A DNA stretch of 64,000 nucleotides from Bryum argenteum. Lineage: Eukaryota > Streptophyta > Bryopsida > Bryales > Bryaceae. This document shows positions 9,874 through 48,800 of this stretch, piece by piece. The notes under the pieces are model-generated. The model made no database searches. It had not been told where the DNA came from and saw only the letters and a list, made by a program, of their open reading frames with translations. Location: the NCBI GenBank assembly GCA_037043015.1, contig CM073325.1:11511001-11575000 (forward strand), read 5' to 3'. Both the position numbers and the translations under genes were made by a program. How positions within the stretch are numbered: position 1 is the first letter of the stretch; each line of letters opens with the position of its first letter.

Positions 9874-10115
9874 TTAACCCTTAAACGTCATATGTTGTCC
9901 TGATACCACACCCAAAATCTCTTTTAAACTCCACTTTTAGCATTATTCTATTTTTAATTTGCGTGAGCTCTATTCTAAGAAAGTATAGATCTCTTTAAGG
10001 TGCTCAGTTTGGAATTTTAAAAATTCCATTTGGTATAATGGAGTGTAAGTTATGAGCAAGATTCTCTTAAAAAAAAACCCAACCCCTCGGGCTGGGTCTG
10101 ACGTTTAAGGGTTAA
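9874..10115. mobile_element. MITE, family C (TTAA-flanked, CCCTTAAACGTCA ends)
   Basis: The left end TTAACCCTTAAACGTCA and the right end TGACGTTTAAGGGTTAA are perfect 17-bp reverse complements, 242 bp apart from edge to edge. If TTAA is the target duplication, the element proper is 9878-10111 and starts CCC and ends GGG. The interior is AT-rich and has no coding capacity. This form is shared with family B (40517 and 43987). Confidence 0.7.
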
Positions 10116-13160: not shown

Positions 13161-13448
13161 TTCAAACTTCCCACCTAATGACAACAAAAGCTGTTGGATA
13201 CTAACTGCCCTCATCTTTCTAGTTTAAGGTCATTCCAAATCATGCTGGGGTTTTTGAACCTCAATGTATAAGTACCTCAAAACCCTTTGAGAAAATAATA
13301 TGTACATTAACTAAGTAAAAATCAACAAAATGTTCACCTTGAGAAGGATAAGTACTTCCAATATAGATTTTGTGATTTTCAAGAATTAACATCCATGAAT
13401 ATGTTTAGCAAACACTCAATCCCCACACCAACCTCTGAACATGTTTAG

Positions 13449-13687
13449 CCCCTTAAGGAGAAGCTCATCCAAAACAACCATATCTAAAATCAGTGAACAA
13501 ATCATTCTTGAATACAATTTTGGGATATCCAACCGTAGGATCTTATTTATAACTCTCTAATTCATTTATCCGCAAGTTAGTATCAAATTACATTGTATGG
13601 ATCTTTAGTTACATTTAGTTAAAGATACGATGTTACAAGAACATCATTTTTTTTTGCGCAAATCGACCACAATGTGAACTTTAGGGG
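13449..13687. mobile_element. MITE, family A (CCCC...GGGG, about 240 bp)
   Basis: Starts CCCCTTAAGG and ends CTTTAGGGG, flanked on both sides by TTAG, which could be a mutated or alternative TTAA target duplication. The interior (GGGATATCCAACCGTAGGAT) matches the copy at 21192-21451. No coding capacity. It lies about 280 bp upstream of the CCT3 start codon. Confidence 0.6.
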
Positions 13688-13969
13688 TTAGAGTTCTTCT
13701 TCTTGAATTCCTAACATGCACGGTAATACGCTGCTCGGCAACAAAGAGAATCAGAAGTTGAGCAAAGGTATGATAATAAGGAGGAGACGGTAATAAGCCG
13801 GAAAGCGGTAACAGGATCGTCGTCTCCACAACTGCCCTCCCAAGACCGTGAGTAGGCCAAGGTTTCCCATTGCAGCCCTAGTTTGCAGTTCGTCGCCATC
13901 GCCACTACTGTTACGCATCACGCTCCTCGATCCATCGCCGTAGCACGATCGCCTCATTATTTCGTCAAA
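13688..13969 (+). promoter_or_regulatory. CCT3 promoter and leader region
   Basis: Short interval between a MITE and the CCT3 start codon. It becomes GC-richer toward the gene (13800-13960). No TATA box is evident, as is usual for housekeeping genes. A telo-box-like AGGGTTT motif appears just after the first splice donor, near 14020. Confidence 0.4.
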
Positions 13970-20949: not shown

Positions 20950-21191
20950 GCAGTTTCAATTAGAGTCAAATGAACCTCACAGCACAAAGCCAATAGTTTA
21001 CAATTCGATTCTTTGAGAAGTATCGTAGGTGGTCAGTAGTTCAGCAGAAACTGAGTTATTTTTGAAAAAGCTGTCAATTCGGTTTGGAGAAAGTTTGATA
21101 TCTGTACTAGTCATAATTAGAACCATAAATGAGATGGAATCGCGGTTTAAGTATGTTTGCCAAAGTCCAAAATTCAAATTTGATTCTTTAA
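20950..21191. other. Short intergenic spacer between mobile elements
   Basis: No gene or repeat recognised. TTAA at 21188-21191 is the left target-site copy for the next element. Confidence 0.3.
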
Positions 21192-21451
21192 CCCCTAAAG
21201 GAGAAGACCCCTACAGTGACTTCCAAGACGGCCATTTCTGAAATCCATGAACATCTCTTTTTGAATTTGATTTTGGGATATCCAAATGTGGGATCTTATT
21301 TACAACTGTCTCATTGGTGTCCTCCTCAATTTTTATCAACTTTCACCATAAGGATCCCGAGTTATCTAGAGTCAAAGTTTTAGTTTTTGCAAAAACAACA
21401 TATCTTTCTTAAGCAAATGGACCACAATGTGGTCGGTTTCAACTTTGGGGG
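21192..21451. mobile_element. MITE, family A (260 bp)
   Basis: Begins CCCCTAAAGG after TTAA (21188-21191) and ends CTTTGGGGG before TCAA, a one-base change from TTAA. The interior around 21280 (GGGATATCCAAATGTGGGAT) matches the copy at 13449-13687. No coding capacity. Confidence 0.6.
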
Positions 21452-23319
21452 TCAATTGGCATTTGAGTGTGGAGGTTTGGTAATCATTATTTTTACAATG
21501 AATGTTGCTTATTCAAAGTGTCATCTTATCATTACAGCTATTGGTGATGTTGGTATAAAGGTTAAAAGTTGAAAGCATTTTGTGAGAGCTTTCAATAGTA
21601 AGAAGTGAGATTTGAGTTGGTAGAAACCTTTCAAAACAATTTTCATTGTGTCTAAGTCAAAGTACATCGTACCTTGTACCTTTTACATTGTCAAACCACC
21701 ATCTACCGACATCTTTCACCATTGATGCTTAACAATCAACGGTTTTTTTCCGAAATTTTCAAAGGTTATACCTACGATTCATTTAGGAAGAGCACAAACT
21801 TGCCAAATCAACAAGGTATGATGTTCATTTGCATAAGAGAAATCAAATTATGTTTTTGGACACATAGGGTAATGTTTGCAGATTTTGAGATTACTTCTAT
21901 TATACATTACTAGAGTTTGAACTTTCATGACTTTTCTCGAAAATACACGAGTAAACTAGTGTTTATTTAACTATGTGAATTTTGTTCTCAAATGTGGTCA
22001 AAATAAAACTAAAAAACCATGACTTCCAATGTTACATATGGATGTTTATTTTCATCTCACAAGCTCGACTTCATGTAAATTAACCTCTAAAGCTACGAGG
22101 CCTGCTAAAAATTGCCTTCTTTCGCTGCAAGCCAAGATTTTTTACTCTATAATGTAATTTGGAGAAAAACTTGATATTTCAACCTAAAGTTGGTCAAGCC
22201 TCTTCAAATTCTTGTTCCTTGGCAAGTTAGGTACATGTTTTACAAAGTTCTATTTTTGACATCTAAAAGGCATATGAAGAATTATATAGATTATCTAAAT
22301 GGTGACAACATACCTTGGTAGGTTTTTACCCTTACAACAAATCAAAATCTGAAAAAAGGTAAATTCCTAAATTTTAGTGCACACCATTATCTCAAAAATA
22401 TTCTCGCATAGCCCAACCTAAATATGGTGCCAAGAATTGCAAAGGAACAGGATCGGAAGCGGTAGCTCCTACAATAATGCAATATTCTAAAGCACCTGCT
22501 TCCAAAAGAATCTTAACTAATTGTGCCACGGTTGAACGTTTCTGTCAAATTGCTACATACACGCAATACAATTTTTCACTATCTGAGGTGCCTTGTGTGT
22601 TACTTTGCTTCTAGTTCAATATGCTATCAATAGCAGTTTTTCAGTTTGTCTCTCTCCTATTATAAGTTCTAGTTGACCATGAGCTATAGGTTTTTGAAGT
22701 TATTGTAATCTAATAGCTTTTGGGCATAATTTTGAGAATGTATGGGGATATACTCCACTTTTGGGCATGCCCTAATAGTGCTTTCAAACCGTGAGAGTGA
22801 ATATCTTGTAAAGTATAAGGAATTTTGACGCATGAATGGTCTTGTTGAAAAGGTCTAGGAATACACTACAATTTGCAAAAGACTTGGAATTCACACAACT
22901 AAGTATAGTATGTGAAGAGTCTGACCAAAGTCAAAACGGCCATATTTTGGCGTCTTGAAACTTTAGGGATTAAAACTTGTAAATATTTTAGTTATTGTTG
23001 CTCCTCAGCTGATGTTGCTTTATGAAACATATATCTGCACAATATAATGCATTGCCAACATTTGATGTGGTTTCAGTGGTGCCAAATTAAAGGTTTACAA
23101 AGATGATATTATTTGCAATCCAGTGGTTGTTTAGAACGTTGTATGATTTCTTAGTCAACTGTTTTGGCTTCTTATTGATAACCACAATAAAAACTAGCTT
23201 TAAACATGTTTTTTTCTCTATAACTTTTGAGGCGATTTTCATCATTGAAAAGACATTATATGTAGAAAGAAAATTTTCTCATGTTTGTCTGTTTGTTTAT
23301 TTTTATTTTGTTTTTTTAA
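21452..23319. other. Intergenic, AT-rich; possible decayed TTAA-type element
   Basis: No gene is supported. TTAACCTCTAAAGC near 22079 and CTTTAGGGATTAA near 22963-22975 look like decayed ends of a longer (about 0.9 kb) relative of the TTAA-type MITEs, but the match is short. Confidence 0.3.
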
Positions 23320-23578
23320 CCCCTAACTCTCCTTGTTGCAAAACGGTCTAAGTCACAAAATGTGACCTTCCTTTGGATTAAGCTCAAATAATCTCAATCC
23401 AAGCATTATTTAAAAGATTCAACCGTAAGATCTCAAAGTTCACTTGACATTCTTCTCACATACCAAATTTGAACCGTTCATTCTTCCTCATTTGTAAGAT
23501 TATAATGGTCAAAGTTGGCTGAGTTTTTCTCTTGCGGGAACCTCCAAACCCGATTCGGGTTTTAAGGAGAGTTAGGGG
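23320..23578. mobile_element. MITE, family A (259 bp, 15-bp perfect inverted ends)
   Basis: The left end CCCCTAACTCTCCTT is the exact reverse complement of the right end AAGGAGAGTTAGGGG. TTAA precedes the element, and TTGT, a drifted TTAA, follows it. The interior contains ATTATAATGGTCAAAGTTGG, as in the copy at 40524-40764. Confidence 0.75.
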
Positions 23579-25292
23579 TTGTATGTTTTCTTCTTTCAAG
23601 GGTGTTGTTGAGGTGACAGTTAATATCTTTTGTAATTGATGATTTTTTCATTGCAATCAATCTATCGGTAACATTTCCACTTCAGAAGTGCAAATTATGA
23701 GCTTCTATGATGTTTCTGAGCACTCATACGTCATAATCTTCCAATCTATGAGTCCTCATGACTCAAAATTTGACCCACATGATGTAAGATATGTCTACTA
23801 CAAGATTGTCCAAATAACTTACCTCTTATTTCTATTTATGACACTTATAAAATAAAATAAAACATGTGTTTTTTATGCTAAAAATGAGTCAAACCATTAA
23901 GAAGTTAAGGTGTTCGGATTGTGGTACACCTACAACTACCAAATTCCTTTTATATTTCATAACCAATCCAACATAAGTCCAAATACATGACTCCAAATGG
24001 TACATTCTCCCATAAACTCTAGACGGTTTCCGAAAATGGCCACTCCACAATAAGCTTCCTACAATGAAGACTATAAAGGCGCGAGGAAAAATTATATACA
24101 TAGAAAAATGTCGTCAAACTGACAGGAATAAATTCTTATGGGTAGTACGTATGAGGCCATGAATTATCATGCAAAAAAGCCAAGCACTGGATCGTGAAGA
24201 CGTTATAGATGTCACGGAGAGCATTAGATTCCCTCGGGCAGGGTTGTACTATGACACATGAAAAAAAGTAAAGGGGGGTCTCTTTGTGGGGGGGGGGGGG
24301 GCAGGATGGAAATTCCAAATGATGAGTAGTGAGTAAGTAGTCATGGTATGCTCTGACCCATAAAAGCGCGTAAGGCCCATACCACTATCATGCCCATCAT
24401 TCGTTAATGCCAGTCATTTTCCAAGTGGTCACGGTACCCCCGCGCACCACGGGCGGAGAGGCCTACCCCCTCCCTTCCCTGCCACCGTGCTGCCGGCCCA
24501 AGGACGGCGCAAAAACGAGTGACGCTCACTCATGCCACTTGCCTCCGTCCCGTTTTGGCCATACGGACGATGTTATTGCCCGTCTTGGCAAGTCAATTCT
24601 CATAATCTATGGCGGTATGGCCTATGCTCGGTACCTTGGTACATTGTACCTTCCTCTCCCTAATGGGGCGCATCGTTAATCTACGTGACAAATAGATATG
24701 CATGGGGGTGCATGTTTGTACATTCGTAAGGTAAGTTGTTGGATTTGAGATCTTGCACTTAACTTGCATGCACTTTGATTCATGATGACATTAGCATACA
24801 TGTACCTCAACGTTCGTATATGACCTCGTCGCGCACCAAACTTGAGTAGTTCTTCCTTGTCGCGAGCAAACAAAGTAATAAGGTCGGTGCATGTATATGC
24901 CAAAGGGCTCCTAGTTATTGCTCGTGTGTTTTTTTTTTTTTTTTTTTTTGACTTCATCGCTTGGCTTGTTGTGACTACGGCCGCCTTTTTGCGAACATTA
25001 TCACTTCAAGATTCCCCTACTTTTGGAAGATTCAACATTTTCATAAACCTAGAGATTGATGGGGTATTGTACATTACATGATGAATCTCATTAAAGTTGT
25101 AGTCATTAATATCGTGTACTTTATTCTTGTAGTGCTGTCACACCCGAATGGCATATCTTCCTCCTCATCTGTACTAGGTTGTAGATCTTTTATAGCCCCT
25201 ATACGTCCTTGATTCCAAAAAACAAAAATTTGGATAACAAGTTGAAGGGCTCTATATATTTCATTCAAGTCTGTTTTCGGCAAAATTTGCTA
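23579..25292. other. Intergenic with repeat fragment, homopolymers and a GC-rich patch
   Basis: 23740-23925 is an inverted copy of the repeat at 20242. A run of G lies near 24290-24301 and a run of T near 24930-24949. Positions 24430-24530 are unusually GC-rich for this region and carry a 90-codon open frame with no recognisable domain; I do not call it a gene. Confidence 0.35.
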
Positions 25293-26083: not shown

Positions 26084-28040
26084 TAGCCTACTTGTGTCTC
26101 TTTTCCTTCCATTCTTATGACAACAAGCAAGCTCCTGTCCTACATAGTTACTGTATTAGAGGTTTTGTCCTTGTACCACCTTACTTACTACCTTGGTAAA
26201 GTTCATGTGAGAAATGGCTGCGTCGCTCATTGAGACACACCTCAACATCGACATAAACACAGAGTTGACAAGAACTCGCACACTCCCCTTCTAGAAGTTT
26301 CATTGTAGTTAGACAAGAGTTGTTAGTAACTTTGACCCACATGAGATTACAATATGTTTATTACAAGATTGTACAATTGTGATGTCCGAAAAATTTATTT
26401 TTGTTACCATTTGTGACACTTTTTTATCTTTTTGGAGATGTGTTCTTTTTGCTACAAATGATCCGGAGGGTCAACATGATGCTTGTTTCAACAAATCATT
26501 GTTTTTATATGGAAATAATTTGCATGAAGGTCATATGAGCGTATTGAGTCTTCAAAGTCTTCACTTGAGTTTACTGTATGATTAGCATGTTGTATTTTCA
26601 AAAAAATTAATGGCTCTAGTGTTATAATCACGCTCACATCACATGAGATGTACAATGGTACTCATGCCAATGATGGATGAGTGCAAATCGCTAAAAGGAA
26701 GTTGTGCATATAGCTAAAAGTCGCTTAAAGGAAGATAGCATAGATACTGTTGGTTCGTGCATAACTTAACCCCTAAAGGCCCAAGAAAGCCGAAAATGGC
26801 TTTTTGGGGTTTCCGCAGGAAAAAAAGTCAGCTAACTTTGACCTTTATAATCTCAAAATTGGAAAAAAATTAACGGCTCAAATTTGACATATGAGTATAG
26901 GGTCAAGTTCACTTCAAGATCCTACGGTTGGATCTTCTAATGAATGCTTAGATTGAGTTTTTTTGGGCCTGAAGTAGAAGAGGGTCCTTTGTGATAATTT
27001 AGACAATTTTGTATCAAGGGCCTTTAGGGGTTAAACGTCATCAATTGACGTTGATCCGATATTGATCCCTCTTATCCCTTCATTGAATTAGGCATTGATC
27101 TTGGTTTTAATTTCCATCACTAGCTCCCTAATATCATTGAAACCTCAAAATTGCAACTTCGACCTATATGCACTCTCGGCAGTGTGAACCAATATGTTCT
27201 ATCTTATCTAAACTTCCAACCATAAGATCTTGTACCTGAGCTTCTTTCTAGTCACCACAAAATAAATAAATTCTAAATGATACTACTACTCTAATTTTCA
27301 AATAATCTAAGTTCACGCTCTTGTCAGTTTTACAAGGGCAACCTTCAGAATTTACAAGGCGAGCTACAAAGTTTGCAAAAAAACTTAACACATAGTTCAA
27401 AAAATTGACCATTGGATATTTCTCATTTGCAAAGTTTGTGCGAAAGTTTTTTTAATGGCATTGCTTGGAAGCCACTGAGTCCATGGTGCAAAGAAAGACT
27501 TGAAGATTGTTACCTCAAACACATTTCACTCATATCTTTCCATGTAGATAACTAAGTTGGGTACGTTCATGCAAGACTTTGAAGACTCAATACGCTCATA
27601 TGAACATCATGCAATTCATTTCCCTTTAAAAACAACGATTCTCTGAAACAAGCATCATGCTAACCCCCCGACTCATTTGTAGCAAAAAGAACAAATTTCC
27701 AAAATAAAATTTTCATAAATCGAAACAAAGGTAAATTTTTCACATAGACCAACCGTACAGTACTATCTTGTAATAAACTCATGTGGGTCAAAGTTACTAA
27801 CAACTCTTGTCTGACTACAATGAAACCTCTAGAAGGGGAGTGTGCCAGTTCTTGTCAAATCTGTGTTTATGTCGATGTTGAGGTGTGTCTAAATGAGAGA
27901 CGCAGCCATTTCTCACATGAACTTTACCAAGGTAGTAAGTAAGGTGGTACAAGGACAAAACCTCTAATACAGTAACTATGTAGGACAGGAGCTTGCTTGT
28001 TGTCATAAGAATGGAAGGAAATGAGACACAAGTAGGCTAG
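26084..28040. mobile_element. Large foldback element, about 1.96 kb, with nested family A MITE
   Basis: 26084-26345 and 27780-28040 are nearly identical inverted arms of about 260 bp, starting TAGCCTACTTGTGTCTC. Weaker inverted similarity continues inward to about 26560 and 27560 (for example CATATGAGCGTATTGAGTCT). The centre holds a family A MITE at 26770-27029. No transposase is encoded. Confidence 0.75.
26770..27029. mobile_element. MITE, family A, reference copy (260 bp, TTAA on both sides)
   Basis: Begins CCCCTAAAGGCCC and ends GGGCCTTTAGGGG (13-bp perfect inverted ends) with TTAA at 26766-26769 and 27030-27033. The reverse complement aligns along its whole length with the copy at 40524-40764, sharing landmarks AGATCCAACCGTAGGATCTT and GGTCAAAGTT. 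Confidence 0.8.
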
Positions 28041-29349
28041 TACACACATGATGCCAATGACGGTCTGCTGCCACTGCTGACTCTGCAGTGCAGTGCAGTG
28101 CAGTGCTGGGGAGTAAGTAGGCTGTAGTCTCTCATGCTTCCAACTTCCTTGGTCACTTCCACACGAAACCATCCCTCTTACATGATGTAAGTATGTAAGG
28201 CCAGGGCAGAGTAATGGAATTAATAGGCTGCTGGAGTAGTCTGATTGATGCTGGGCGCCAGTGCAGGCGCCTGTTGAGCCCTGAATTTCCCTGGTCAAGC
28301 AGTAGTCGGCCACACCGAAACTGAGCCTCTTTCCACCGGTTCAACAGTGTGTGTGTCCCAGAAGGGAATTATCTGCTCACCCTTAATTGTCCATGGGGTC
28401 TGAAACGGGCAGCCCCACAACATCTTTTGGACTTGGGCATTGTGAATTGTGCACTTTCTGAACTTGGGCATTCATGTGAATGAACCAGTCAATGATGGGC
28501 TTACAACCTCCTTCAAGGTTATGTACAGTACAACCCATGACCCACTCATAGAAATATACCTTTGAGGCCCTCCCTTTGTGGAATGATCCTGAAGCATTGT
28601 AGTTTTGTATATGCTCACAGGAAATTCCCTATGAGCCTACACGAAACTTTTCCCTTTTGATTTGGTAATAATAAATTTTTCTTTCGGGCAGCTTGGTTCA
28701 TTGTTACTTTTATGAGCTAAGGAATAAATTACACAATTGCTAAATATGGTATCAAGAGGTATAGATTATTCAATGACCGATTACATTGGTTTGCACAAAA
28801 TCCTTCGAATTCGCTTGTGGAACTTCTGTTCTAAAAGCCATCTTGCTTGTGGGCGCTTCATTATGTATAATACACTTTCCTTTGATAGACCTTGAAGTAG
28901 CAATTAACTTAGCCCTTTTCTCGCATCTGTGGCGTGGAGACACACACAAGCATGCACAAGTATATATTAGTACAACATGTCATAATATGTGATTGTATTC
29001 AAAAACAAAACAAACACATAAACTTTACAAGTGTAGTTTGTCACAAAGTGCAGTTTCTCAAGATTTAAGCATTCAATATGTTGTAGAGATTAAAATACTA
29101 TGTTATTGAGGGATAGTATAGCATGCGTTTTTAAGGTTGTACAAACAGAATGTCTTCGACATTCTTGCCGCCGTGTTTCTGGGATCGATGGCAAGGTAGA
29201 CGTGCACCACCAAATACTCAAAAAACACTACCGAATGGATATCTTTTGTTTGTTGAACCATAAAGCACCAAATCTAAACTATGTCGTTAATGCATTCCTT
29301 GCAAGATGGGCAACGCAAGAGCTCAAGATCGTTGCCGGGGTGTGAAGAG
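28041..29349. other. Intergenic; short GCAGT microsatellite
   Basis: A (GCAGT)n tract occupies about 28085-28106. No gene is supported. The 81-codon open frame at 29100-29345 runs directly into the decayed transposase region and might be its 5' part, but it has no diagnostic motif. Confidence 0.35.
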
Positions 29350-37783: not shown

Positions 37784-40516
37784 ATTCTATGCATCATGAC
37801 TACTATGGTGTACTAAAACGTATGTTTAGATTTGCCAACAAGTTTGATATTTTGTTTCAATAATATTAGTGTAGTCGACCCTCTTTAGTTTGGCCCACCC
37901 TGCCCCCTAGAAAATGTAATAATCCATTTTTTACATGTTTGGAGGCCCTCTATTCTTTTTTTTCAAACTTTGAGTTTAAAAATGTAATTGTACACCCCAT
38001 TTTACACTTAGAAAATGCTCCTTGATGTTTTGGTGATATTAAAAATTAAAATTTACGAGAAGTTATTTTTTGGGCACCATGGGCTCGCAAGAGGCCCAAG
38101 CCCTCTATTATATTGCCCTTATTGGTGAGGATAGCTCCTTTCTACTCCACCACCAAGTTTTATTCCACTCTTGAGATCTCAAGTGTAGGAATAAAATTCT
38201 CACAAGTTAGCAACTTTTATGATCATGTTATCGTGTATCAATCGAGACATTTGTTTTTTGTAACATTTAAAAAATATATATATTGAAGTAGTATGGAATC
38301 ATAGAAGGTTCTTCTCAAGAATGAATCACAATTGACAAGTAGACTTGACGTACAGGGTTGCACATATATGTACTAATGATACATAAAAGTAAGTCATGTG
38401 TTTTCAAGGGATAAGTTGATCAATCAACCTTTGAACCCATACATGATACAACCATCCACATGTGAGAGTTGTCGAGAATCATTGTAGTATGGAGCTCATT
38501 GACATGCAAATGATTTAGTAATGACAAGTTCTTGTAGATAAGTCAGGAGCGTGGTATGAACTGTAGAGGCCCTGGAGGAGTGCCAAGAAATATGCGGCGA
38601 TGGTGCATCACTTCCTCCACATGTGGTGTAAGGGTGATATCTTATGCAAGAACAGAGGAGGAGTCCCAAATTGGAACCGGGGACCGCACTTCGAATTCTT
38701 GCCCCAACTCCCCAAGAGCTGAGTACGAGATTTGCGTCAACAAGAATCAACCTTGCTACCAACGCTGGTTTTGCAAGAGAATGTTCTCCTCCCCATTTGG
38801 AGTCAGAACGTAGATGGCTCAGGATAGTCACCTCCCGTGCCCTCACGCACTTGGGTGGGCACCCCCACTCCTCTCCAGACCCGTTCTGATCCTAAGGAAG
38901 TTTCATCGACAGTCTTACTCGATGCAACTCAGCTACTACCGAGGCTATAACGAGGCCTTCTTATACTTCAGAGGATCATGGACTCTTTGGCGGACGAAGT
39001 CATCGGTGAAGGCGGAGTTAACTTACCGGAGGACATTCAGTCTCCTCATAAGTTAGAAGAGCACTGAACCTTCTGGGCCAATCTGTGAAGCTTTACACTT
39101 TGTGACCCAAGGTCGGTTGTTCATTATATGACTCTCGGCCTTCCAGTGCTCCCTTTGTAGGGCCAAGGGCTTGGGCGACGTGATCCACTCGCATGTAATT
39201 GTTTTGGTTAATCTATTGTAAACCTCAAAACACGGGCTTAAATTGTTATAAATCGGTCATGTAACTATCAAGCGAAAGTTTGATGAACCATGTTTGCAAT
39301 TGTCAACTTGGCGTTATCTCAATATCGCTTCATCCGTTTCATGAAGTTGTAGGTAGTCACTTTCAACAAATATTCAAGTTTGTCTTGTCTTTTATGGTTC
39401 TAAGGTTGTGAATGAAACTCTTCGCACCAAAAATTTGCTCACAAGGAGATTCATATACTGCATGATAGGAAGGCATTTGGTTCACATGCACATCAACAAA
39501 AGCCATATTGTTCAAGAGTGAAAAGGTACCACAATATGTTTTGCATTTGCTTATCATGTTACTTTTTCCAAAAATGGTTCTAGTAATGTGGATGAATGCT
39601 CTTACAAATTATGAAGCCTCTTGATGTCATGTTTGCACCCATATAAATGACTATATGATGCATCGTTGCCAATCTTCACAAAACACTCTCATAAATAACT
39701 CTAAAAGAAAAACATTGAGCCAATGACACACACTCTAAACCTATTATGATAAATGTTTGAATCGGTTCAAATCCAATTTTTTCAAAACTTTAAAACCTCC
39801 ACTCAATACTTCCAAAATTACATCTCAAAGTTCTGTTTTGTCCTCAAATCAAGATAACTCAAGTTAAAGAATATCCTCATTTTTTCTATGTTTGAATTCA
39901 TATATACTTCAAAGTTACCTTTTTATAATTACAAACACCCATGTTCAAAATATCATGAATATAAAAAAAATTCTTCGTAGGAGCATGGAATATTCCTTGT
40001 GCTGATGCAACCATGCCCGGATTGACACAACAAAAAAAAACAACCCAGCCTACGTACCCTAAAACCGTTATGGAGCTGGCATGCACACACCACACGGGCA
40101 ATTTGAAAATTACAAGACAATAATAGGATAACAAACCGTTATTCCAGTTGGAATACAAACCCACCTCCACGAAACAACAAAATAGGGTGAGTGGACATTG
40201 ACGATAAGATTGGCAAGCTCCAAAACAAAACAAAACAAAACAAAAATATTGACTCTTCTGACTTTCTCTGTGCCTCTGAAGGCTCATGCCCTCAAGCTAC
40301 CATCATCACCGAACTCTGCAACACACAAACTAGCCTTGAGCTCAAGGAAGCAAGCAAGCAAAAAGGGGAACACCTCCCCAAAAACCTCTGCTTTCTTTGA
40401 CCTTCTCCACGCAAGGCATTGCATTGGGAATGCCACTATACAATAGTACTACTACTCTTACACATAAAACCCACGTTGAGAATTATCCAAAGCTCTCATA
40501 TTTTTATTATATTCAA
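37784..40516. other. Intergenic, no supported gene
   Basis: 38500-38890 has overlapping open frames on both strands with slightly higher GC but no recognisable domain. 40220-40245 is a short ACAAA-type simple repeat. Otherwise AT-rich DNA with nothing recognised. Confidence 0.35.
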
Positions 40517-41103
40517 CCCTTAACCCCTAAAGGTTCTTGATGCAAAATTGTAAGAATAGACATTCCCTTACTTCAGGCCTAAAAACTCTCAATCTAAGAA
40601 TTATTTGGAAGATCCAACCGTAGGATCTTGAAGTTAACTTAACCTTCCACTCACTGGCCAAAATTAAACCGTTGATTCTTCTTCATTTGTGAGATTATAA
40701 TGGTCAAAGTTGGCTGAATTTTGGACTCCAAAAAGCAGTTTTCGCTTTCCTGGACCTTTAGGGGTTAAACGCCTTAGCAAGCCCGAGGAGTTTTTTTTTC
40801 CAACAGAATCAGCTCTCACTACTCTCAACTTTTTACTTATATTTTGATGTCAAACTCATCACCTTCTTCTGATGCATTCATTTTACAATTCAGATCACAA
40901 TTTGTATGAGTGATATTGTGGTCTGAAAGGAATGTAGTAGGTAGGTAGGTTGGGGTTGTATATAACCTTGTAGGAGGTTGCAAGCTCATCATTGATTGGT
41001 TCATTCAAGCTGCCCAAGTTCAAAAAGTGCACTGTTTATGATGCCCCAAGTCCAGAAGATGCTGTGATCCAATTTCGGGCTGCCCGTTTCAGGCGTTTAA
41101 GGG
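40517..41103. mobile_element. MITE, family B, interrupted by a family A MITE
   Basis: Removing 40524-40764 and one TTAA restores a left end CCCTTAAACGCC that is the reverse complement of the right end GGCGTTTAAGGG (41092-41103), flanked by TCAA and TTAA. Net length is about 342 bp. The interior (ATATTTTGATGTCAAACT, AGGAGGTTGCAAGCTCATCA, GCACTGTTTATGATGCCC) matches the copy at 43987-44355. Confidence 0.75.
40524..40764. mobile_element. MITE, family A, inserted in the terminal repeat of family B
   Basis: Begins CCCCTAAAGGT and ends ACCTTTAGGGG, with TTAA at 40520-40523 and 40765-40768. The interior is the reverse complement of the copy at 26770-27029, with landmarks AGATCCAACCGTAGGATCTT and ATAATGGTCAAAGTTGGCTG. 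Confidence 0.8.
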
Positions 41104-41544
41104 TTAATATTTTATTGTTTGTGCAGTACAGTATTGGGGGTTGTGCCAAAAAGGGACCCCACGAAAATATCCTTGGTTCAACCATGCAATTCCGTTCCGT
41201 GCTTAGTGGGTTTTGCTGTTTCACTAAATATGTATGAATGAGCTGAGGGCCTGCTTTAGTTAGCATAGGGAATGGAATGCTGGTGGTGGGCTTGACCCTT
41301 GGAGGTCCGATTGCGGCAGCTTGAAAAAGGAAGGTTCCTCTCTGATGCTCGCTTTTGCGCTTTTGAGCTTCGTTAGAGGAAGTGTGATTGACGGTGGCAA
41401 TCACGTTGTTGTGTGTTGTGTTGCACGTGGGTTTAATTCGAACTCATGCATGCAAGTTTTTTTTGAAGTTTTTTAAAAGTTGAGAATTGTTCATACCCTC
41501 ATACCCTCGTTAAACATGCGAACATGCACACAAGTTTTTGTTAG
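41104..41544. other. Intergenic spacer, nothing recognised
   Basis: A 122-codon minus-strand open frame at 41036-41404 overlaps the end of a MITE and has no domain signature, so it is not called. Confidence 0.3.
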
Positions 41545-43925: not shown

Positions 43926-44400
43926 TGAAGAGCATTGGTGTTTACATAGTACGAGGATCTTTGGAAATATTGATGATAAGGGTTAAGGGTTAAGGGTTAA
44001 ACGCCCAAGCAAGCCCGAGGGGCATGATTCCAACAGAATCTTCCCTGTAGCTCTCACTGTACTCAACATTTCACTCATATTTTGATGTCAAACTGGTCAC
44101 CTTCTTCTGATGCATTCAAAAAGTGAAATTTCACAATTCAAATCACAATTTGTATGAATGATTTTGTGCTTTGAAAGGATTGTGGTAGGTAGGTTGGGGT
44201 GGTACATAACCTTGTAGGAGGTTGCAAGCTCATCATTGATTGGCCTATTCACGATGCCCAAGTTCAAAAAGTGCACTATTCATGATGCCCAAGTCCAAAA
44301 GATGCTGTGATTCAATTTTGGGCTGCCCGTTTCAGACCCCATGGGCGTTTAAGGGTTAAGATACTAGAATGTATGGGACGGAGTATGGGAATACGTCGCT
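43546..44400. mobile_element. 855-bp element with 45-bp perfect terminal inverted repeats
   Basis: 43546-43590 (starting AGCGACGTATTCCCATACTC) and 44356-44400 are exact reverse complements over 45 bp; no mismatch was seen. The same 45-bp sequence occurs once at 33398-33442 in copy 1 of the duplication. A family B MITE sits just inside the right end. The CTCCGTCCCATA part resembles Stowaway-type ends, but no TA duplication is seen at the outer edge. Confidence 0.6.
43987..44355. mobile_element. MITE, family B, second copy
   Basis: The right end GGGCGTTTAAGGG precedes TTAA (44356-44359). The left side reads GGGTTAAACGCCC after a threefold GGGTTAA run (43979-43993), so the left terminus is rearranged relative to the copy at 40517. 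The interior matches that copy along its whole length. Confidence 0.6.
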
Positions 44401-46542: not shown

Positions 46543-48800
46543 ATGATTTATAAGAGTGAGGGCGCTGGTTTCGACAGTTTCAATCAAGGAAATCTTGAAA
46601 TTGCCGAAGTTGGCCTTCTACGATCGAGCTTGTCTACGCTAGGAGAAGGAATGGTAGGTGGAATGTCATTGAGGTCGAGGCGGGCCTCAGTTTGTGGAGA
46701 ATCGACAGCCTCCTCTTGCCCTGCGTTTTCTGTGTCTTCGCTGTTATCTACTTCACCTTCGAAGCCGACAGCAACTGCTGCGTCCTTGGTCTCCATGAAG
46801 TCGATGAGTGTCGCCACGCCGAAGAAGCACGGCCCTTACGCGGACAAGGGTCACCTGACAACATGGATCGATGCAATGAGAGCACAGTCGCCGGGCCGAC
46901 ATCGGCCTCACCATGGAGAGGTCGTTGATGCCTTGGACACGGAGGCTGCGATATACAGCTCTTGGCTCGTAAGTACCGACACTGATTCATTTACACTTGG
47001 CCTTGAGGAACGAATATCTACGTTCCGGAATTTTTCTTCCATCGAAGTTATGCCTAGGTTTTTGTACCTCGTTTTTTCTGATTGTGTTTACGTCGTTTGT
47101 TCAATGCAGGAGAAACATCCATCGGCGTTGACCTCTTTTGAGAAAATGGTGAAGCTTGCGAAGTCTAAGCAGATAGTTGTCTTCCTTGACTACGATGGCA
47201 CATTGTCGCCCATCGTCGCAAATCCGGACCGGGCTGTGATGTCTGACGAGGTAAGGACTTTCTCCACAGGTTTTTCGGTTTGTTTTTGTCGGTAGTACAC
47301 CTACGTTGCCTTCTTGGCATTTCAACCCACGCTTACCCTGTTTTGCTATCGCGCAGATGCGGGCTGTTGTTAAGGATTTGGCCACTTGCTTTCCTACTGC
47401 AATAATCAGTGGAAGAGCCCGCCCAAAGGTGTACGAATTTGTGCAATTGTCAGAGTTGTATTACGCGGGAAGTCACGGTATGGACATAGCCGGTCCTGCG
47501 AAGAGTTCAAGTGGCTTCAAGGTGGCCGGAAGCCGAAGCCAAGACAAGAAGGTACACCTCTTTCTGACACTGTCATTGCATCTATTTACTTACAAGACCT
47601 TGTTCTCTGCAGAAATTATTTGTGTATTGTACTTTAGGTATACCTGGCGCTTATTCGTTTGGACTTGTCTGACAGTAACTTGATTCTTGTCATTGAACAG
47701 GGCAACGACGTTGTGTTCTTCCAGCCTGCCAGTGAATACCTGCCATTGATGGATACGGTATGTTTTTGTTGTACCAATGTTCGCCATTTGTCTTATGATG
47801 CGCCTCATATTATGCTCTTAGCATAGCATTTTCTTGGAATCTTATTGCCCTTGATCGAACTCAGCAGTTGTGAAATTATCAGTCTCTCACCATGCGTATT
47901 CTATCCGCAGGTTTGTAACATCTTGACCGAAACCACCAAAGTCATCAAGGGCGCAAGAGTTGAACACAACAAGTATTGTGTTACTGTGCATTTCCGTAAT
48001 GTGAGAGAGGAGGTACTTAGTCACGCAACACTCACCTCATCTATTTTCGTTCGTGTAGTTTCAATGGCAGTACTACAACGTAGATGTTCACGGTGCCGGT
48101 ACTTGCTCCTCTAATTACGTTGTTTTCATCTTGGGTGCAGCAATGGGAAGCTCTTGCATCGAAAGTTCAGAACATTTTGAAGGATTATCCGACTCTAAGC
48201 CTCACTCACGGCCGGAAGGTGTTGGAGGTCCGCCCGTCTATTGCTTGGGACAAAGGCAAAGCTGTCGATTACCTCCTGAATTCTCTCGGTACGCACAATC
48301 ATCCTGCAGATGTGCATTGTTGCAATGAGTTTTCATTTATCGTGTTCGTCTATTGTGGTGACAATACTGAACTGACTGCATTGTCCAATGTTGCAGGTTT
48401 TGCTGATTCAAGTGAAGTTTTCCCGATTTACATTGGCGACGATCGTACCGACGAAGATGCTTTTCAGGTTTGTACTTGACACAGCTACCTGGTCTGAGTT
48501 TTAGTGAGATAGCTATCTTGCTATTGTACTGTCTCCGACTATATGATGCATAACATAGGCACTCTTCTTCTTTACATCTTACGTAAAAACTCACGACGTT
48601 TTTATCTTGTTATGCAGCTGTTGAACAGCATGGAGCACAGCTGCAGCATCTTGGTGTCAAGTGTACCCAAGTCAACGAAAGCCAACGTCTCGCTTCGAGA
48701 TCCATCAGAGGTGCAGGAATTTTTGCGACGATTGGTGCACTGGAAGAAATGGGGACCGGAGAAACGAAACAGCGGAACATACGGACGGCATTTCCTATAG
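46543..48800 (+). CDS. TPP: Trehalose-6-phosphate phosphatase
   Basis: Eight exons join in frame: 46543-46968, 47110-47250, 47357-47551, 47701-47757, 47911-48012, 48141-48288, 48397-48467, 48618-48800, giving 440 aa. The enzyme removes phosphate from trehalose-6-phosphate, a sugar-status signal in plants, leaving trehalose. It is a HAD-family hydrolase: motif I is [10 protein letters not shown] (nucleophile D169, acid/base D171), the SGR motif is at 207-209, and the metal-binding motif is [10 protein letters not shown] (370-379). WDKGKAV and the closing [16 protein letters not shown] are typical of plant TPPs. No trehalose synthase domain is present, so it is a stand-alone class III-type TPP. 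The N-terminal ~140 residues are Ser-rich and poorly conserved, as in other plant members. The ATG at 46543 is the first in this frame after an in-frame GTG region; splice sites are canonical. Confidence 0.95.

Follow-up and report, generated by a model that had tools for sequence, protein, structure and literature searches.

piggyBac-like MITEs and candidate full-length partner elements in the genome of the moss Bryum argenteum

The five short CCCC...GGGG elements in a 64,000-bp stretch of the Bryum argenteum genome (contig CM073325.1, positions 11,511,001 to 11,575,000; the window) are almost certainly non-autonomous piggyBac MITEs, and they look like internal-deletion derivatives of elements of 5.7-6.0 kb. 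piggyBac, a widely used gene-transfer tool, is a jumping gene best known from, and mostly studied in, animals. The initial annotation had read the short elements as piggyBac-like MITEs, an identity upheld by PF13843 partners, a DDD triad, TTAA flanks and gap-free empty sites. The genome searched comprised 258.8 Mb in 25 contigs, with the window on contig C5, and the window features are collected in Table 1.

Table 1. Lineage-A and lineage-B features in the window (positions of the window; + and -, strands).
Feature	Position	Strand	Details
Focal lineage-A MITE	26766..27034	+	261-bp element 26770-27030; TTAA at 26766-26769 and 27031-27034
Focal 5' terminal block common to full-length elements	26766..26812	+	83-87.5% over 40-47 bp
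Focal block homologous to full-length 3' sub-terminal region	26820..26932	+	71-74% over 104-118 columns, seven elements
Sub-terminal imperfect palindrome AAGATCCTACGGTTGGATCTT, candidate transposase-binding site	26916..26936	+	Putative binding
Right terminal inverted repeat GGGCCTTTAGGGG	27018..27030	+	13 bp, perfect against left end
Lineage-A MITE	40520..40768	-	Element 40524-40764, 241 bp; flanks TTAA/TTAA
Lineage-A MITE, older copy	23316..23582	-	Element 23320-23578, 259 bp; flanks TTAA/TTGT
Lineage-A MITE, older copy	21188..21455	-	Element 21192-21451, 260 bp; flanks TTAA/TCAA
Lineage-A MITE, older copy	13445..13691	-	Element 13449-13687, 239 bp; flanks TTAG/TTAG
Fragment resembling 3' region of full-length lineage-A elements	27443..27581	-	82% over 101 columns to L051; 72% over 118 to L049/L050
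Lineage-B MITE TTAACCCTTAAACGTC...GACGTTTAAGGGTTAA	9874..10115	+	Window TTAA inverted-repeat scan
Lineage-B MITE (CCCTTAAACG ends), split by the element at 40520-40768	40513..41107	.	Joined-flank alignment
Lineage-B MITE, one end rearranged	43997..44359	-	95% to B element nested in L013
Lineage-B MITE fragment	28379..28526	+	81%

All five copies lie where they had been placed, at 13449, 21192, 23320, 26770 and 40524. The lengths first given, 239-260 bp, held for four of them, the focal copy being one base longer, and the focal span of 26766..27033 located the element correctly and ended one base short, because the right TTAA occupies 27031-27034. TTAA on both sides, claimed for intact copies, was found at 26770 and 40524 (2/5); the copy at 13449 has TTAG on both sides (1/5), and those at 21192 and 23320 have TTAA on the left side only (2/5). 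Related interiors were confirmed for the copies at 26770, 40524 and 23320, which are mutually 75-76% alike, and the copies at 13449 and 21192 (72.6% alike) are linked to these three mainly through one sub-terminal motif. The window on its own gave weak statistical support, since a scan for TTAA with a 12-bp inverted repeat returned seven pairs, three of them starting with CC (9874, 26766 and 40520), versus 0-7 for seven other four-letter words.

The reality of the family was decided by the genome, in which the 14-mer TTAACCCCTAAAGG, comprising the end and TTAA, has 1459 + 1443 = 2,902 exact matches (end matches, not counted elements) versus 0 + 2 for the reversed pattern. The genome-wide copy search proposed in the initial annotation revealed at least 40 places matching the 268-bp query 26766-27033 at 96-100% (40 of 2030 candidates scored). 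Boundaries stopped at TTAA, as had been predicted, on both sides in 25 of the 26 fetched copies, L025 having CATG in its place on one side; seven of the 26 tabulated copies (L009-L014 and L070) had been picked by a TTAA-containing pattern and so do not count as independent, and the query that retrieved the 15 focal-type copies itself includes TTAA. The elements are short, non-coding, uniform in length and present in high copy number, and their ends are common to autonomous elements, the features by which piggyBac MITEs are recognized.

The search for longer elements with the same ends and a DDD transposase likewise yielded what had been anticipated: a piggyBac transposase is encoded in elements of 5.7-6.0 kb that have TTAACCCCTAAA at their ends. 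Three of them, L009, L010 and L011, were located as end pairs 5.7 kb apart among the 100 TTAACCCCTAAAGG end matches listed, and four more, L049-L052, were located by their transposase and not by their ends. All seven lineage-A full elements have TTAA and CCCCTAAA ends, which in L049-L052 form perfect CCCCTAA... inverted repeats of 14-16 bp inside the TTAA. Each of L049-L052 has one open transposase frame of 841-925 aa, and the frame is broken in L009, L010 and L011. Pfam PF13843 (DDE_Tnp_1_7) was detected in lineage-A elements with E values of 1.6e-62 to 5e-77, and it was the sole Pfam family in all six long elements scanned (L009, L011, L049, L051, L052 and the lineage-B element L070), so that an autonomous partner from another superfamily was not encountered among them; L010 and L050 carry a frame homologous to the transposase. 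With the L009 transposase as query, the genome yielded at least 84 matches, 61-100% identical to it (78 of 970 candidates scored), of which 18 among the 84 listed are near-full-length without an internal stop and with a frame of at least 800 aa by manual count, the longest open frames among the matches listed reaching 982 aa from stop to stop. GTAGGGG or TTAGGGG followed by TTAA was present downstream in 16 of 20 further transposase copies for which 0.9-1 kb was fetched, and no end was found within that distance in the other four (L079, L081, L084 and L091).

Comparison with PDB sequences returned only two matches for the transposase, piggyBat (the better, E 1.6e-27) and piggyBac. The predicted fold (pLDDT 86.7) best matched 6x67 and 9c0f, with Foldseek E values of 4e-27 for piggyBac and 8e-25 for piggyBat, followed by Tn5 at 3.5e-7. 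Alignment to the catalytic Asp residues of 6x67 placed the DDD triad at D566/D657/D774 (L051 numbering), two of these positions being invariant and the third conserved in at least 90%. The C-terminus is rich in Cys and His in the alignment and may form the Cys-rich (zinc) domain of the superfamily. dN/dS of the catalytic part was 0.115-0.119 in the three of ten pairs for which it was computable, and purifying selection on the lineage-A transposase is evident at this level of comparison.

The best-surviving rival explanation holds that the elements are relics of a dead system, with near-identical copies arising from segmental duplication or gene conversion. Some window copies are indeed old (72-76% identity, altered flanks), and the broken frames of L009, L010 and L011 point the same way, but the purifying selection on the transposase and the comparison of copies make this reading unlikely. 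Six of the 15 focal-type copies compared, which as the best-scoring ones lean the age sample towards young copies, are identical over 260 bp, although their immediate flanks differ between loci. Flank-against-flank comparison of 21 loci revealed a few stretches in common (L001, L004, L008 and L027), none of them putting two insertions at one site. L010 and L011 share 99.7% identity over 5.7 kb. Recent movement of the focal-type MITEs is likely on this sequence evidence, and the family may still be active.

The target site was analyzed by joining the 45-bp flanks of 21 insertion sites over one TTAA and searching the genome with the product (40 of 2151 candidates scored), so that the empty sites described here are unoccupied paralogues within one genome, not sites in other accessions. 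Paralogues spanning the join were found at eight of the 21 sites, and no empty paralogue among the candidates scored at the remaining 13. All 17 empty loci fetched align without a gap across the join, and exactly one TTAA is present at the join in 11 of them (sites L004, L008, L011, L024 and L027). The other six (sites L006, L009 and L023, that is, three of the eight sites) have substitutions in diverged copies in place of TTAA and no change in length; the expectation that empty sites carry a single TTAA thus held in full for the 11 and in length for the six. Six of the 23 empty-paralogue matches at the L024 site were among those fetched, and the empty site of L011 is that of a full-length element. 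Nested insertions were found as well: L012 shows an A-type MITE inside another A-type MITE, with paralogues reading TTAG at the site, and L013 shows a B-type element in an A-type MITE, with a single TTAA in the paralogue. Within the window, the A-type MITE at 40520-40768 sits in a TTAA within the terminal repeat of the B-type MITE listed at 40513; when the two flanks are joined, they match the 370-bp B element of L013 (82% over 375 columns) with a single TTAA at the join. As read from these alignments, the target duplication is the 4-bp TTAA characteristic of piggyBac. The focal-type MITEs L087 and L004 each occupy precisely the TTAA that terminates another piggyBac-like element, which leaves the two elements side by side with a TTAA in common.

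Two other superfamilies were considered because TTAA includes both TA and TAA/TTA, and both were rejected on the empty sites and the PF13843 partner. Stowaway-like MITEs of the Tc1/mariner type would have a TA duplication, with the outer T and A belonging to a target preference or to the repeat (ACCCCT...AGGGGT), and TTAACCCC...GGGGTTAA can indeed also be read as TA + ACCCC...GGGGT + TA; the chance of this is nonetheless minute, as one TTAA at the join leaves every empty locus free of gaps, 11 with TTAA exactly, the six scanned long elements carry no Pfam family besides PF13843, and the 13449 copy is flanked by TTAG on both sides. Tourist-like MITEs of PIF/Harbinger, with a 3-bp TWA duplication (TAA/TTA in the plant Tourist MITEs of the passage seen in PMC10004981) that is contained in TTAA, are just as improbable, given that the empty sites yield a 4-bp duplication and that PF13843 is the one Pfam family in the six scanned long elements, where a Harbinger transposase would be expected inside TTAACCCCTAA-ended elements.

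Returning to the piggyBac reading, we compared the focal MITE with the full-length elements, with which it is co-linear. Its 5' end is 85% identical over 47 bp to L009, L010, L011 and L051, 87.5% over 40 bp to L052 and 83% over 42 bp to L049 and L050, and between its positions 55 and 167 it matches the 3' sub-terminal region of the full-length elements at 71-74%. When 20 lineage-A 3' ends were aligned (four full elements and 16 partial fetches, the near-duplicates L010, L011 and L050 being left out), AAGATCYWACGGTTG stood out in two strongly conserved copies, 51 bp apart at about 128 and about 179 bp from the 3' end, with less conserved flanking columns. The copy nearer the end is retained in all five window MITEs with 0-5 mismatches in 21 bases; at up to five mismatches, the window has one further match (27211) outside these MITEs, and five single-base shuffles gave one in total. 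At five mismatches, no copy beyond the two at the 3' end was found in the seven full elements. Since the C-terminal domains of the piggyBac and piggyBat transposases bind sub-terminal palindromes (PMC11707139, in part), we propose the 3' motif as a candidate binding site of the moss transposase. The match at 27211, with four mismatches, lies beyond the focal copy, and the window segment 27211-27581 is probably a decayed piggyBac end just past it.

Under the deletion model, the genes would have been lost from the MITEs, and what remains would be the 5' end (in the focal copy, about 47 bp) together with the motif-bearing 3' sub-terminal region. The full-length elements would make a piggyBac-type DDD transposase presumed to bind an element at its CCCCTAA ends and at the sub-terminal motif, to cut the element out and to join it into a new TTAA, giving a 4-bp flank on each side; the MITEs may be cross-mobilized by this enzyme. 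Among the seven full elements and the 20 partial 3' ends, no direct parent of the focal MITE was found, the closest full-length match there being about 87% (ends) and 74% (interior).

A second group of elements, lineage B, has CCCTTAAACG ends. Its end sequence TTAACCCTTAAACG has 2991 + 2954 = 5,945 genome matches (control, 1 + 3), and its 5.2-kb element L070 encodes PF13843 (E 1.4e-82). A transposase tree of 34 sequences, from which the short hits P0009, P0013 and P0015 were left out, unites the four lineage-A proteins with L070 and 13 proteins from metagenomes in a single supported group (100/99), to which the three named mollusc proteins do not belong. Judged by their ends and transposases, there are two piggyBac lineages in the moss genome. 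The lineage-B copies of the window at 9874, 43997 and about 40513, as well as the position of the A-copy 40524 inside the last of these, had been absent from the initial annotation. One end of the B copy at 43981-44359 reads TTAAGGGTTAAGGGTTAAACG and not TTAACCCTTAAACG, as might result from inversion and repetition of an 11-bp block. With both TTAA counted, the lineage-B elements L071 and L072 measure only about 80 bp, which may be close to the minimum for a mobile element.

Upstream of the transposase lies a second frame, ORF1, in the lineage-A elements L010, L049, L050, L051 and L052 and in L070 of lineage B. Judged by a dN/dS of 0.21-0.31 in five of six pairs within lineage A, ORF1 is under purifying selection in that lineage; L070 ORF1 and L051 ORF1 share 29% identity. 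The ORF1 and transposase frames overlap with a +1 shift in L049-L051, and in L010 and L052 a GT...AG intron is predicted that ends at the transposase's conserved ATGGAGTGG, no intron being present there in L049-L051. Scans of three ORF1 frames plus the L070 frame gave no Pfam match, only seven metagenome proteins were found as relatives, and the predicted structure, five helices at intermediate confidence (pLDDT 73), had no PDB fold match at E 0.001.

The moss elements resemble piggyBac (IFP2) of Trichoplusia ni (PDB 6x67/6x68) in TTAA target and flanks, CCC-type ends, DDD fold, sub-terminal palindromic motif and, apparently, a C-terminal Cys-rich region. They are, however, 5.2-6.0 kb long with a second conserved frame, in contrast to the 2.4 kb and single 1.8-kb frame of piggyBac (PMC2874221, in part), and their motif was found, at five mismatches in the seven full elements, only near the 3' end (about 128 and 179 bp), whereas the passage seen of PMC11707139 gives a 19-bp palindrome at both piggyBac ends. 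piggyBat of Myotis lucifugus (PDB 9c0f) likewise has repeated sub-terminal imperfect palindromes at one end only (PMC11707139, same passage), but its motif sequence, spacing and host differ, and identity on the fold alignment is 22%. Pokey of Daphnia and its mPok MITEs share with the moss families a long piggyBac element (4-10 kb), TTAA duplication and short MITEs (PMC3315735, in part); Pokey targets a 28S rDNA site besides other places, whereas no such target was seen in the moss, and the host kingdom differs. The angiosperm PiggyBac MITEs and Ceratopteris PiggyBac repeats are, like the moss families, plant elements, present in plant TE listings or counts, but the passages seen (PMC10004981 and PMC6890710) show no plant transposase, ends or empty sites.

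The superfamily is already known; what is new is that it occurs here in a plant, as two abundant lineages, with a large number of open transposase frames, an additional frame and a 3' motif present twice. Within the open-licence passages covered, no piggyBac with transposase, ends and empty sites is described in a moss or other land plant; these passages name piggyBac as one of the plant superfamilies, give repeat counts or state its occurrence in plants. One review, as excerpted, regards the piggyBac relatives in plants, fungi and animals as probably inactive (PMC2874221), and a 2017 Physcomitrella paper describes the piggyBac system, in the part seen, as still awaiting a test in that moss (PMC5505980). 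Our data suggest that a plant maintained a piggyBac system of its own until recently, and that a land plant retained at least two piggyBac lineages, one with many open frames under purifying selection, both of which spread thousands of ends. Tentatively, and with somewhat less than even confidence, we envisage a plant-adapted, still mobile two-gene piggyBac (DDD transposase and ORF1) in two deeply split lineages with a doubled 3' palindrome, one copy of which is in the MITEs. If this is true, plants have their own live piggyBac machinery, with a parts list unlike the animal one. Mosses are genetically tractable, so that piggyBac activity, seamless excision and target choice would be directly testable in a plant nucleus.

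Several further observations were made. In the lineage-A MITE L014, inspection by eye revealed that a unit surrounding the sub-terminal motif is expanded head to tail, with several copies of AAGTTAACTTCAAGATCCTACGGT. The repeat that holds the L024 MITE may be a longer non-autonomous member, because a TTAACCCCTAAAGG end lies about 1 kb away at all four contig C1 copies listed (8012446, 10894435, 21924347 and 31423089). The window also holds a trehalose-phosphate-phosphatase exon (46546-47292), whose best named relative is from Physcomitrium patens (54% over 96% of the query, E 1.9e-61), followed by Sphagnum (E 7e-22), Marchantia (1e-17) and then angiosperms, an order that, for this one gene, points to a moss host. 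On contig C1, the largest at 44.1 Mb, both families are about ten-fold rarer, with 62 of the 2902 A ends, 94 of the 5945 B ends and one of the 84 transposase matches listed; a sex chromosome or heterochromatin would fit this scarcity.
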